Shown: piece after piece, positions 11,590 to 55,158 of the stretch
Layout of the letters: each line of letters opens with the position of its first letter
Position numbering within the stretch: position 1 is the stretch's first letter
Source of the DNA: Thermococcus sp. LS1
Lineage (GTDB): Archaea; Methanobacteriota_B; Thermococci; Thermococcales; Thermococcaceae
NCBI RefSeq assembly: GCF_012027395.1
Contig: NZ_SNUJ01000004.1
Coordinates: 62,001-126,000 of the forward strand
Direction: 5' to 3'
DNA: 64,000 nt
Notes under the pieces: generated by a model
Told to the model about the DNA's origin: nothing
Database searches by the model: none
What the model saw: only the letters and a program-made list of their open reading frames with translations
Position numbers and translations under genes: made by a program

Positions 11590-12657
11590 GTGCTTGTATG
11601 TTCACGCTGTGGGTTCAGGTATCCAGAGGAATTTCGCTTGAGGTGCGACTGCGGGGGAACCCTCTTCGTGGAGAAGAACATAAGCGGCCGCTTTGGGGAG
11701 AACCTGCGGAACCACTTTGATATCAGGCGCTACCTGAGTTTTCTACCCGTCTCGGAGGGACATCTACCTGTCATCATTCCGGCAATAACTCCAATCGTGG
11801 AGCTTGCTCTGGATGGAGTAAACGTGCTCTTCAAACTTGAATACCTCCAGCCAACGGGCTCCTTCAAGGACAGGGGCACCTACGTAACAATTGCCAAGCT
11901 CATGAAAGAGGGCTTGACTGAGGTTGTCCTCGACAGCTCGGGGAACGCGGCGTTAAGTCTGGCCGCTTTTTCCAAAGCTGCGGGAATATCCGTCCACATC
12001 TTCGTGCCCGCTCTCACAAGCTCCGGAAAGCTTGAACTCCTGAAAAGACTTGGCACGGAGCTTCACGTCATCGATGGTTCGCGGATGGAAGTCCACAGGG
12101 CGGCTATCGAGTTCGCCGAGAGGAGAGGCATCACCTATGTCTCCCACTGGCTTAATCCATATTTCATCGAGGGGACGAAAACAATCGCCTTTGAGGTTTA
12201 CGAGAGCGCTGGCGTTCCAGACTACGTTTTAGTCCCAACCGGCAGCGGTTCCCTCTTCATCGGCCTCTGGAAAGGCTTCTCCGAGCTTAAAAAGATGGGC
12301 GAGATTGACAGACTTCCTCACTTTGTGGCGGTTCAGGCTTCCGGCTACGAGAGTCTCTGCAAGCGCTCGGAAGAGAAAAGTCACCTCGCGGAGGGCATAG
12401 CCATACCGGAGCCGCCGAGGCTGGAAGAGATGAGGAAAATACTAATCGAGACCGAAGGGAAATGCATGAGCGTTGGTGATGCTGAAATAGCGGAAGCCAT
12501 TCGCTGGCTCTGGGAGTGGGGCTTCATCGTTGAGCCGACATCAGCAACGGTGTTGGCCGCCCTGTGGAGGCTCAGAAAAGACGGCTCTGTCCCCGAGGGT
12601 TCGAAAGTCCTCCTTCCCCTCACCGGCTCGGGCCTTAAACTAACCCAAGGTATTTAA
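11590..12657 (+). CDS. thrC: threonine synthase (PLP-dependent)
   Basis: Threonine synthase converts O-phosphohomoserine to threonine. The 355-residue protein begins with a zinc-ribbon-like CSRCG...CDCGG, followed by a fold-type II PLP domain. The Schiff-base lysine is Lys93 in QPTGSFKDRG, the phosphate-loop and substrate motif is DSSGNAALS, and the PLP-phosphate segment is VPTGSGSLF. GTG at 11590 is favoured because GGTGG lies 5 nt before it; GTG at 11581 is also in frame. Its intact lysine contrasts with the second threonine-synthase-like protein at 53824-55158. Strict threonine synthase activity is inferred. Confidence 0.85.
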   Translation: MLVCSRCGFRYPEEFRLRCDCGGTLFVEKNISGRFGENLRNHFDIRRYLSFLPVSEGHLPVIIPAITPIVELALDGVNVLFKLEYLQPTGSFKDRGTYVTIAKLMKEGLTEVVLDSSGNAALSLAAFSKAAGISVHIFVPALTSSGKLELLKRLGTELHVIDGSRMEVHRAAIEFAERRGITYVSHWLNPYFIEGTKTIAFEVYESAGVPDYVLVPTGSGSLFIGLWKGFSELKKMGEIDRLPHFVAVQASGYESLCKRSEEKSHLAEGIAIPEPPRLEEMRKILIETEGKCMSVGDAEIAEAIRWLWEWGFIVEPTSATVLAALWRLRKDGSVPEGSKVLLPLTGSGLKLTQGI

Positions 12658-51249: not shown

Positions 51250-51861
51250 TTGGCTGAAAAGCTAAAGGGAACGACTACGGTCGGCATTGTATGTAAGGAC
51301 GGCGTTGTCCTAGCGGCGGACAGGAGAGCATCGCTCGGCAACATGGTGCTGTCAAAGGAAGTCACTAAGGTGTTTCAGATAGATGACCATCTGGCCCTGG
51401 CTGGAGCTGGAAGCGTCGGGGACATTCTCTCGCTTGTTAGACTTCTGAGGGCTGAGGTTAGGCTCTACAGGGCCAAGGTCGGGAGGGAGATGGGCGTTAA
51501 GGCCCTCGCAACGCTTACTTCTAACATTCTCCACGGGAGCAGGTTCATGCCGTACTTCGGATGGTTTCTCATAGCCGGTTATGATGAGAAGCCCGCACTG
51601 TATTCCCTCGATATGGCGGGCGGCGTTACAGAGGATAAGTTCACCGCAGCCGGCTCTGGAATGGAGCTAGCCTTCGCAGTTCTTGAAGATGGGTATAAGG
51701 ACGACATTAATGTTGAAGAGGGCGTTAAGCTTGCCCTCAAGGCTATAAAAATTGCCACGAGGCGTGATGTTTTCACAGGCGATGGAATAACACTCGTAAC
51801 CGTGACGGAGGAGGGCTACAGGGAGCTGAACAGAGAGGAAATAGAGGCTCTTCTGAAGTGA
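51250..51861 (+). CDS. psmB: proteasome beta subunit
   Basis: This is the catalytic subunit of the 20S proteasome. The 203-residue precursor has a seven-residue propeptide (MAEKLKG) before the catalytic Thr8 ([13 protein letters not shown]). Further conserved features are the active-site lysine and aspartate (AADRRAS) and the C-terminal [11 protein letters not shown] region. The start is TTG after GGGGTGTTGTAA. The stop is 10 nt from the fttA TTG start, and the two genes are probably co-transcribed. Confidence 0.96.
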
Positions 51862-51871
51862 GGTGGTGACT

Positions 51872-53818
51872 TTGATAAGGAGAGAGACGTTCGTTGACGA
51901 CATTCTACGCGATATAAAAGCGGTAATCTCCCAGATGGTTCCGAGGGGGGCTAGAATAACAGACGTCGAGTTCGAGGGGCCTGAGCTCGTTATCTACGTC
52001 AAGAACCCCGAGGCAATAATGCAGGATGGGGAGCTCATCAAGAACCTCGCCAAGGTTCTCAAGAAAAGGATAAGCGTCAGGCCGGATCCGGAGGTTCTCC
52101 TCCCGCCGGAGAAGGCTGAGGAGATGATAAAGGAGATAGTTCCGCCGGAGGCAGAGATAACCAGCATCAGCTTTGACCCGTCCGTGGGTGAAGTCCTCAT
52201 AGAAGCCAAGAAGCCGGGTCTAGTGATAGGTAAGAACGGTGAAACACTCCGCTTGATAACCCAGAAGGTTCACTGGGCTCCCAAGGTGATACGAACTCCT
52301 CCGCTTCAGAGCCAGACGATATACTCCATCAGGCAGATACTCCAGACCGAGAGCAAGGACAGGAGGAAGTTCCTCCGTCAGGTCGGCAGGAACATCTACC
52401 GCAAGCCCGAACTCAAGAGCGAGTGGATAAGGATAACCGGTCTCGGAGGCTTCAGGGAAGTCGGCAGGAGTGCCCTTCTCGTCCAGACCAACGAGAGCTA
52501 CGTTTTGGTTGACTTCGGTGTTAACATAGCTGCCCTCCGTGACCCCAAGAAGGCCTTCCCTCACTTCGATGCTCCGGAGTTCCGCTACGTCCTGGATGCA
52601 GGCCTTCTCGATGCGATAATCATAACTCACGCTCACCTTGACCACAGTGGTATGCTTCCGTATCTCTTCCGCTACAAGCTCTTCGACGGACCGATATACA
52701 CGACCCCACCGACCAGGGACCTTATGGTCCTCCTCCAGCAGGACTTCATCGAGATTCAGCAGATGAACGGCGTCGAGCCGCTCTACAGACCGAGGGACAT
52801 CAAGGAGGTCATCAAGCACACCATAACCCTGGATTACGGCGAGGTCAGGGACATAGCGCCGGACATGCGCCTTACCCTTCACAACGCCGGCCACATCCTT
52901 GGTTCTTCCATAGTCCACCTCCACATAGGCAACGGCCTCCACAACATAGCAATCACCGGAGACTTCAAGTTCATCCCAACGAGGCTTTTCGAACCGGCCG
53001 TTTCGAGGTTCCCGAGGCTCGAGACCCTTGTCATGGAGTCCACCTACGGTGGAAGCAACGACTACCAGATGCCGCGTGAGGAAGCTGAGAAGCGCTTGAT
53101 TGAGGTCATTCACCAGACAATAAGGAGGAAGGGCAAGGTTCTCATTCCAGCCATGGCCGTCGGTAGGGCCCAGGAGATAATGATGGTTCTCGAGGAGTAC
53201 GCGAGGGTTGGTGGCATAGAGGTGCCAATTTACCTCGATGGAATGATTTGGGAGGCCACTGCCATACACACGGCCTATCCAGAATACCTCAGCAGACACC
53301 TCCGCGAGCAGATATTCCACGAGGGCTACAACCCGTTCCTCAACCCGATATTCAAGCCCGTCGCCAACTCCCGGGAGAGGCAGGACATCATAGACAGCGG
53401 TGAGCCGGCGATAATCATAGCTACTTCGGGCATGCTTGTCGGCGGACCGAGCGTGGAGTACTTCAAGCAGCTCGCTCCGGATCCAAAGAACAGCATGATA
53501 TTCGTCAGCTACCAGGCAGAGGGAACCCTTGGAAGACAGGTGCAGAGGGGACTCAGGGAAATCCCGCTCGTCGGCGAGGGAGGCAAGACCGAGGTCGTCA
53601 AGGTCAACATGGAGGTTCACACCATCGACGGCTTCTCAGGTCACGCCGACAGGAGGGAGCTCATAAGCTACATAGCAAGGCTGAGACCGAGGCCCGAGAG
53701 GGTCATCACAGTCCACGGAGAGCCCCACAAGTGCCTTGACCTCTCAACAAGCATCCACAAGAAGTTCGGCATCAGCACGAGGGCCCCGAACAACCTCGAC
53801 GCAATCAGGCTGAAGTGA
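51872..53818 (+). CDS. fttA: transcription termination factor FttA / aCPSF1
   Basis: FttA is the archaeal CPSF73 homologue that cleaves nascent RNA and terminates transcription. The 648-residue protein has two N-terminal KH-type domains (about residues 1-145, VIGKNGETL). A metallo-beta-lactamase core follows with THAHLDH, HNAGHILGSS and TGDFKF, interrupted by a beta-CASP domain with IIIATSGMLVGG. The C-terminus holds DGFSGHADR and VHGEPHKC. TTG 51872 is preceded by GGTGGTGA. Confidence 0.96.
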   Translation: MIRRETFVDDILRDIKAVISQMVPRGARITDVEFEGPELVIYVKNPEAIMQDGELIKNLAKVLKKRISVRPDPEVLLPPEKAEEMIKEIVPPEAEITSISFDPSVGEVLIEAKKPGLVIGKNGETLRLITQKVHWAPKVIRTPPLQSQTIYSIRQILQTESKDRRKFLRQVGRNIYRKPELKSEWIRITGLGGFREVGRSALLVQTNESYVLVDFGVNIAALRDPKKAFPHFDAPEFRYVLDAGLLDAIIITHAHLDHSGMLPYLFRYKLFDGPIYTTPPTRDLMVLLQQDFIEIQQMNGVEPLYRPRDIKEVIKHTITLDYGEVRDIAPDMRLTLHNAGHILGSSIVHLHIGNGLHNIAITGDFKFIPTRLFEPAVSRFPRLETLVMESTYGGSNDYQMPREEAEKRLIEVIHQTIRRKGKVLIPAMAVGRAQEIMMVLEEYARVGGIEVPIYLDGMIWEATAIHTAYPEYLSRHLREQIFHEGYNPFLNPIFKPVANSRERQDIIDSGEPAIIIATSGMLVGGPSVEYFKQLAPDPKNSMIFVSYQAEGTLGRQVQRGLREIPLVGEGGKTEVVKVNMEVHTIDGFSGHADRRELISYIARLRPRPERVITVHGEPHKCLDLSTSIHKKFGISTRAPNNLDAIRLK

Positions 53819-53823
53819 TGGGT

Positions 53824-55158
53824 ATGTTCGTTAGGTGTCCCTCCTGCGGGAGGCTCTATTCTTCTCTTATTCCCCCCACGTGCTCCTGCGGCGAGCCACT
53901 TAGGATAGCCTACGACTACGAGAATGTTGATGTGTCAAGATGGCGAAACAGGGATAAGGGCGTCTGGCGCTACAGGGAGCTTCTGCCAGACGTTAATGAG
54001 ATTATCAGCCTCCACGAGGGTGGAACGCCTCTTCTTAGGGCCAAACTTGGCGAGGAACTCGGACTAAACGTCTTCATCAAGGATGAAACGAGGAACCCGA
54101 CCGGCTCCTTCAGGGACAGGCTAATCACGGTTGCCGTTTCCTATGGCCTGCCCCACGCTGAGAACGGTTTCGTCGTCGCCAGCAACGGGAACGCGGCGGC
54201 TTCCCTGGCGGCCTATGCAGCCAGAGCTGGCAAAGAGGCCTACACGGTAGTCCCCAAGCTCATAGAGAAGTGCAAGCTAACTCAGATTGCTGCCTTTGGG
54301 GCCAAAATCATACGCTACGGCGAGAGCGTTGACGAGGGCATAAGCTACGCTGAGGGGCTGGCCGAGGGTAAGGGCCTGTACAACGTCACTCCCGAGAGCA
54401 ACCTGATTGGCCTCGAGGGCCAGAAAACGGTGGCCTTCGAGCTCTGGGAGGAGCTCAACCCTACTCACGTGATAGTGCCCACTGGAAGCGGCAGCAACCT
54501 TTACAGCATCTACAAAGGTTTTAGGGAGCTCCTGGAGATTGGTGCAATCGATGAGATGCCCAAGCTTATAGCGGTTCAAACTGAGAGGTGTTCCCCTATA
54601 GCAAGCGAGGTTCTCGGCGTTGAGCCTAAGGCCGAGCCCACCAAAGCTCTGGCCCTCTACGTCAAGAACCCCCTCACAAAGGAGCTCGCCCTTGAGGCTA
54701 TACGGGAGACGGACGGAACTGCAGTCCTCGTTGGGGAGGACGAGCTTGATTTGGGCGAGAGGCTCCTCGCGAAGGAGGGTATCTTTGCCGAGTACGCTTC
54801 AGTGGTAATAGTCCCGGCGCTCCTCAAGCTCGCCGAGGAGGGCTACTTTGAGAGGGACGACAGAATAGCCCTAATCGTGACGAGCTCCGGATTGAAGGGC
54901 CACTACTCGGAGAGCAGGGAAAAGTTCGCCCTTGGAGGAACCAAGCTCAAAATCCTAAAGCTGCTCGGCGAAAGGAGCATGTATGGCTACGAGATATGGG
55001 AAGCACTGGAGAAGCCGCTCAAGTATCAGGCCGTTTATCAGCACCTGCGCGAGCTCGAAAGCCTCGGTCTCATAGAGGAATCCCATAGGAAGGGACGGCG
55101 CGTGTACTACGGGCTCACGGAGAAGGGTAGAAAGTTCCTCGAGACGCTCTCTGCCTAA
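53824..55158 (+). CDS. threonine-synthase-like pseudoenzyme fused to a winged-helix domain
   Basis: The 444-residue protein has a zinc ribbon (CPSCG...CSCG), then a fold-type II PLP domain, then a winged helix. Most threonine synthase motifs are kept: VASNGNAAASLAAYAA, VPTGSGSNLYSIYKG and VTSSGLKGH. The Schiff-base lysine, however, is replaced: NPTGSFRDR has Arg97 (codon AGG) where the lysine should be. Residues 368-444 form a PadR/ArsR-like DNA-binding domain (MYGYEIWEAL, YQAVYQHLRELESLGLI, GRRVYYGLTEKG). A non-catalytic, ligand-sensing regulator is inferred. It starts 5 nt after fttA; ATG 53818 is also possible. Confidence 0.85.
   Translation: MFVRCPSCGRLYSSLIPPTCSCGEPLRIAYDYENVDVSRWRNRDKGVWRYRELLPDVNEIISLHEGGTPLLRAKLGEELGLNVFIKDETRNPTGSFRDRLITVAVSYGLPHAENGFVVASNGNAAASLAAYAARAGKEAYTVVPKLIEKCKLTQIAAFGAKIIRYGESVDEGISYAEGLAEGKGLYNVTPESNLIGLEGQKTVAFELWEELNPTHVIVPTGSGSNLYSIYKGFRELLEIGAIDEMPKLIAVQTERCSPIASEVLGVEPKAEPTKALALYVKNPLTKELALEAIRETDGTAVLVGEDELDLGERLLAKEGIFAEYASVVIVPALLKLAEEGYFERDDRIALIVTSSGLKGHYSESREKFALGGTKLKILKLLGERSMYGYEIWEALEKPLKYQAVYQHLRELESLGLIEESHRKGRRVYYGLTEKGRKFLETLSA

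Follow-up and report, generated by a model that had tools for sequence, protein, structure and literature searches.

A degenerate threonine synthase fused to a winged helix is predicted to sense PLP and regulate vitamin B6 genes in archaea

In bacteria, vitamin B6 supply is controlled by PdxR (MocR/GabR family), in which a winged helix is fused to a domain derived from a PLP enzyme and whose regulon comprises pdxST together with genes of B6 transport and salvage (PMC5320631). MocR proteins are described as absent from Archaea (PMC5320631). In the literature that we searched, with subscription journals largely outside its reach, we found no archaeal B6 regulator of the kind proposed here and no description of the TS-WH fusion, PRK05638, TK1427, or PF1406. 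The protein analysed here, a degenerate threonine-synthase domain followed by a PadR-type winged helix (TS-WH), resembles PdxR in its fusion of a winged helix to a PLP-enzyme-derived domain, and its predicted regulon, pdxST plus a PF07155 S-component gene, is likewise comparable, as an analogy and not as membership in the same family. In PdxR an N-terminal GntR helix is combined with an aminotransferase domain of fold type I, whereas TS-WH has a fold type II sensor and a C-terminal PadR-type helix and has lost its lysine. It shares with threonine synthase (ThrC; PRK08197, PRK08329, TIGR00260; PDB 1uim, 6cgq) the zinc ribbon, the fold, and the contacts to the PLP phosphate and ring, but it lacks the Schiff-base lysine, its substrate-binding residues are replaced, and a winged-helix domain has been added. 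This last domain is common to the PadR/ArsR-type regulators and is predicted to be the DNA-binding module of what is otherwise a large PLP-fold protein. From the sequence evidence presented below, we consider it highly probable that TS-WH is a one-component archaeal repressor that senses PLP and controls B6 synthesis and uptake.

The TS-WH protein and the fate of its pocket

In the window (i.e., the whole stretch of 64,000 nucleotides that was analysed), the TS-WH gene occupies positions 53824–55158 of the forward strand, as do all features given below, with its ATG at 53824 and its stop at 55158, and encodes a 444-residue protein predicted to be a PLP-sensing regulator of vitamin B6 genes. 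The zinc-ribbon cysteines C5, C8, C20, and C22 (53836–53889) are invariant among 59 aligned family members. They precede a fold type II PLP (PALP) domain (residues 61–353, 54004–54882; Pfam PF00291, 3.6e-66), a flexible linker with pLDDT <50 (residues 358–368, 54895–54927), and the winged-helix domain (residues 369–443, 54928–55152), which matches Pfam PadR at 2e-10 (residues 377–440) and HTH_5 at 3e-5. The PadR match (PF03551) scored 41 bits against a gathering cut-off of 27, the C-terminal domain also matches PF01022, and no GntR-type winged helix was matched in the Pfam domain search. In an AlphaFold2 model built on an alignment of 59 relatives (mean pLDDT 92), helix 401–413 is found by DSSP at the recognition-helix position, and the nearest solved structures are the threonine synthases of B. 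subtilis, M. tuberculosis, and Thermus. The threonine-synthase fold and zinc ribbon are thus present, but the lysine of GSFKDR is not: the motif reads GSFRDR, with Arg97 (codon AGG, 54112–54114) at the Schiff-base position, equivalent to Lys61 of the Thermus enzyme. The zinc ribbon, the threonine-synthase fold, Arg97, and the appended winged helix, as well as a lysine-containing threonine-synthase paralogue at 11590–12657, had been pointed out in the initial annotation and were confirmed. Among named genome contigs, the proteins most similar to that of the window (83–86% identity or less) are from Thermococcus MAGs, which places the window in Thermococcus or a close relative. The genome of the window has three threonine-synthase paralogues besides TS-WH (one in the window and two more), all with Lys. 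A Lys paralogue of this genome with the motif TWSFKDR (L002, C1:213602–214669) lies two genes from a second psmB-like gene.

The NCBIfam family that contains TS-WH, NF004170 (PRK05638), is present in 66 of 94 Thermococcaceae genomes. Profile searches also found the two-domain protein in a second family (f2) of the same class and in about 63 of the 398 genomes sampled from the Thermoproteota (here the phylum of the ‘Thermoprotei archaeon’ MAG L050); of these carriers, 62 show the fusion itself and one (G195) is interrupted at a contig end. Many of the genomes compared are MAGs. The fused proteins form a single clade (support 100/94), and among 128 distinct sequences from Thermococcaceae and Thermoproteota the Schiff-base residue is Arg in 112, Leu in 3, Met, Ile, and Thr in 2 each, Phe in 1, gapped in 3, and Lys in only 3, so that 125 of 128 (>97%) have a gap or a residue other than Lys. 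Among 24 proteins scored as unfused, the residue is Lys in 18, Arg in 5, and Leu in 1; the Arg cases all come from truncated or split genes, and the complete unfused paralogues that we saw all retain Lys except for one haloarchaeal protein with Leu. Such a haloarchaeal homologue (L052:5974–7140; L090, Halobellus), which has no winged helix, carries its Leu within the motif NPTGTVLDRG. The winged helix is present in every complete TS-WH gene, bearing out the expectation that it and Arg97 would occur together.

Among the complete Thermococcaceae orthologues examined, only that of G002 (L066; Lys, codon AAA) departs from Arg, which is also the residue of most Thermoproteota relatives. It had been suggested that an orthologue with Lys would point to a sequence error in the window; one such orthologue does exist, but an error at codon 97 was rejected because Arg is conserved across orthologues of both groups. 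The Lys-bearing fused proteins (L066; L157, L160) look like reversions because they are nested inside Arg clades, and the G002 orthologue reads as one also because its genome retains the operators described below and its substrate residues are absent.

Pocket residues were read from a joint alignment of the 59 family members with Thermus threonine synthase. The PLP contacts are retained, namely the equivalents of Asn87 (58 of 59) and Thr317 (54 of 59) and the glycines of the phosphate loop. Selectively lost are Thr85 (Asn/Asp in the family), Asn154 (Thr), Ser155 (Pro/Ala), Arg160 (Gly or small), and Asn188 (Ser), which we take to be the phosphohomoserine contacts of the Thermus enzyme and which K-type paralogues mostly retain. 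The protein of the window follows this pattern: its asparagine loop ASNGNAAAS (residues 119–127, 54178–54204) keeps Asn123, presumably the contact to PLP O3', with Asn/Asp in place of the enzyme's Thr85; residues 189–196 (54388–54411) read Thr-Pro...Gly in place of Asn154-Ser155...Arg160; and both the phosphate loop GSGSN (residues 221–225, 54484–54498) and Thr353 (54880–54882; Thr317 of the Thermus enzyme, the pyridine-nitrogen contact) are unchanged. This is what would be expected of a protein that binds PLP without binding substrate.

The equivalog name of NF004170 is ‘threonine synthase’, and its profile spans full-length TS-WH at 780 bits. Together with the intact fold, this would suit a protein that is still an enzyme, either a threonine synthase or a catalyst of another PLP reaction through a different lysine, with the winged helix as an accessory. 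We regard this as very unlikely, given the near-universal absence of the Schiff-base lysine among fused proteins, the lost substrate residues, the separate Lys threonine synthases that genomes retain, and operators that track the presence of TS-WH. The name thus appears to be wrong, and the members examined are predicted regulators.

The PF07155 partner and the predicted operators

PF07155 is the family of PdxU and PdxU2/HmpT, which are among only three characterised prokaryotic transporters of B6 vitamers or PLP (PMC9997740); HmpT has pyridoxamine as its substrate (PMC4860826). In Thermoproteota the gene 3' of TS-WH usually encodes a PF07155 ECF S-component, followed at some loci by a tandem ABC ATPase. 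For two archaeal S-components tested, HmpT (4hzu_S) was the only PDB sequence match, and with the family match this predicts a B6 substrate for the partner. Co-occurrence is strong in both groups, although the counts and p-values ignore the relatedness of genomes and so overstate independence: PF07155 is found in 66 of 66 Thermococcaceae with TS-WH vs. 14 of 28 without (p = 2e-9), and in 61 of 63 Thermoproteota with TS-WH vs. 143 of 335 without (p = 1e-17). Under the same reservation, PF07155 and pdxS are almost mutually exclusive among the 398 Thermoproteota (both in 26, PF07155 only in 178, pdxS only in 158, neither in 36; p = 1e-46), and only 4 of the 63 TS-WH carriers have pdxS, which fits a predicted role of PF07155 as B6 importer where PLP synthesis is lacking. 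At about 18 loci (L203:7222–8226 and 17 similar ones), an AIR-synthase-superfamily, HypE/ThiL-like kinase gene follows TS-WH and PF07155; the genomes concerned mostly have no pdxS, and the gene is a candidate for a missing archaeal B6 kinase.

Thermococcaceae that have TS-WH carry a palindrome with the core AGTTNNAACT at the promoters of PF07155 and pdxST; where TS-WH is missing, this palindrome is nearly absent. One PF07155 promoter of a carrier, for example, reads ATTTCAAGTTTTAACTTGAAAT, and that of the window's genome reads TTTTTTAAAGTTGAAACTTGAAAT, overlapping the TATA-like TTTTTTAAAG. A genome-wide scan of 27 genomes, which used exact patterns only, found MAAGTTNNAACTTG at the PF07155 promoter and at scattered single sites, and also at the pdxS-pdxT promoter in four genera (G073, G090, G093, and G007, the last of genus g3, which is probably Pyrococcus). 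Scored against TCAAGTTNNAACTTGA, pdxS promoters reached at least 12 of 14 positions in 15 of 16 genomes with TS-WH vs. 1 of 13 without (p = 3e-6), and PF07155 promoters reached at least 11 of 14 in 33 of 37 vs. 1 of 13 (p = 2e-7); as the consensus was derived from the same promoters as those scored, the sets without TS-WH are the real control. The two exceptions are incomplete MAGs, G052 (73% complete; pdxS) and G003 (78% complete; PF07155), in which the TS-WH gene may have gone unsampled. Operators were weaker in some carriers: PF07155 promoters of the Pyrococcus-like g3 scored 8–12 of 14, and G029 and G048 had weak operators or none. Stretches resembling TTCAAATCANAAYCTGA, located ∼44 nt before the pdxS start in genomes without TS-WH (L320, L332, L333, L322), may be decayed operators.

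In Thermoproteota, the form TAGTATAGTTNNAACTATACTA (core as TATAGTTNNAACTATA) precedes PF07155 at 19 of 39 loci with TS-WH vs. 0 of 20 without (p = 7e-5), and an intermediate form, TAGTAAAGTTATAACTTGACTA (L206), bridges the palindromes of the two groups. In one carrier (G273, L335), TCAAGTTATAACTATAC immediately precedes the likely start of pdxS. Under the consensus used, a clear operator was not found at about half of the Thermoproteota loci or in some Thermococcaceae carriers. The co-occurrence of TS-WH and palindrome is a correlation only and would also arise if another regulator, retained and lost together with TS-WH, read the site; this seems very improbable to us, since the core is found alongside TS-WH in two phyla, and in neither of them do PF07155 genes carry it where TS-WH is missing. 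Changes between presence and absence of TS-WH number at least four on the PdxS tree and at least two on the PF07155 tree; joint loss of regulator and operators therefore probably happened more than once, though not often.

Archaeal activators usually bind upstream of the BRE/TATA elements. The palindrome instead either overlaps TTTTTAAA or TTTATAT or comes immediately after it, a placement that is, in this predicted operator, the position of a repressor; at the pdxS promoter of the window's genome, CTTATATTCAAGTTTTTTCTTGAGATTATTGCAAGTTAAAGCTTGAAAAGGTGATACCGATG comprises two near-palindromes 3' of the TATA box. The opposite logic, in which apo-TS-WH activates pdxST and uptake with PLP as anti-activator, has a precedent in several bacteria, where apo-PdxR activates pdxST in this manner on what would be the same regulon (PMC5320631). 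Because the palindrome does not lie upstream of the TATA box, we judge such activation unlikely. A repressor with PLP as co-repressor would be the simplest account because of where the operator lies, on the TATA box or just behind it, and because the predicted regulon is PLP supply and the pocket has no covalent trap.

Gene neighbourhood

In the window, TS-WH follows two genes that we take to be psmB (proteasome beta; 51250–51861) and fttA/aCPSF1 (51863–53818), its ATG coming only 5 nt after the stop of fttA. The usual order in Thermococcaceae is psmB-fttA-TS-WH-(small membrane protein)-rpiA, with the small membrane protein and rpiA absent downstream in the Pyrococcus-like g3; fttA is the conserved upstream neighbour except in the Palaeococcus-like genus g2, where TS-WH lies beside spermidine synthase. 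At Thermoproteota loci no fttA linkage was seen. A role tied to fttA or psmB was therefore rejected, the linkage being constant in most Thermococcaceae yet absent from g2 and not seen in Thermoproteota, and the special meaning first attached to the position behind a termination factor found no support. The conserved neighbour psmB is likely co-transcribed with TS-WH but outside the mechanism.

Nor did we find signs of autoregulation through the same palindrome: a search for such a site gave 5 matches in the window against 4.1 expected by chance, none of the palindrome lay upstream of psmB, fttA, or TS-WH there, and Thermoproteota showed no shared operator upstream of TS-WH, the operator lying before PF07155 instead. 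In lineages whose Schiff-site residue is Ile or Leu, a palindrome stands immediately ahead of the TS-WH start, GCCTATATATAGGC in L164 and L172 and TATATAAGCTTAATCTTATATA in L171, possibly reflecting autoregulation via another motif.

In nine Thermoproteota genomes (L104, L106, L108, L111, L112, L113, L114, L170, and L215), a canonical thrC stands divergent to TS-WH, separated from it in two cases by one or two small genes and in some accompanied by a nearby homoserine dehydrogenase. This adjacency is unaccounted for by the B6 model. Along with the descent of the sensor domain from threonine synthase, it would favor a sensor of phosphohomoserine or threonine, the kind of ligand implied by the initial annotation, that controls threonine biosynthesis. 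However, the substrate contacts are precisely what the pocket has lost, no palindrome was found at the genes for threonine synthase in the genome of the window (best matches 8–10 of 14), PF07155 is the partner that recurs, and the predicted operators stand at pdxST and PF07155. The threonine or phosphohomoserine ligand is thus unsupported, and a threonine regulator is, in our estimation, highly unlikely.

Predicted mechanism and significance

In the PLP-sensing repressor that we favor, the former threonine-synthase pocket would still hold PLP through the phosphate loop, the Asn at O3', and the Thr at N1, while the change of Lys to Arg would block the internal aldimine and phosphohomoserine would no longer be held. 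Because neither the aldimine nor substrate binding would be possible, PLP would act as a reversibly bound signal and not as a catalyst. At high PLP, the protein would be in its holo-form, probably as a dimer, and would bind the palindrome (CAAGTTNNAACTTG in Thermococcaceae, TAGTATAGTTNNAACTATACTA in Thermoproteota, with their common core), shutting off both the de novo synthesis of PLP by pdxST and the uptake of B6 through the PF07155 S-component; as PLP declines, the apo-form would come off the palindrome and these genes would be expressed. We infer that the protein binds PLP and DNA, forms dimers, and represses its targets with PLP as co-repressor. The general idea that an amino-acid enzyme was turned into a ligand-sensing transcription regulator gains support from the fusion, the lysine loss, the pocket, and the operators; the predicted regulon, vitamin B6 synthesis and uptake, had been overlooked.

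We think it likely that these proteins constitute a new family of archaeal B6 regulators, spread over two phyla and misnamed threonine synthase, in which loss of the lysine made PLP a freely exchanging effector, and that they are a second, independent B6 regulator based on a PLP enzyme beside MocR/PdxR. A database family named threonine synthase would be corrected, and the near exclusion of pdxS strengthens the case that archaeal PF07155 proteins are B6 importers. The work supplies a testable regulator, operator, and regulon for archaeal B6, and carriers of TS-WH include Thermococcus-like archaea with existing genetics. The comparison with PdxR suggests convergent evolution, in which fusion to a winged helix made regulators of B6 supply out of two unrelated PLP folds, with the covalent lysine removed in TS-WH.
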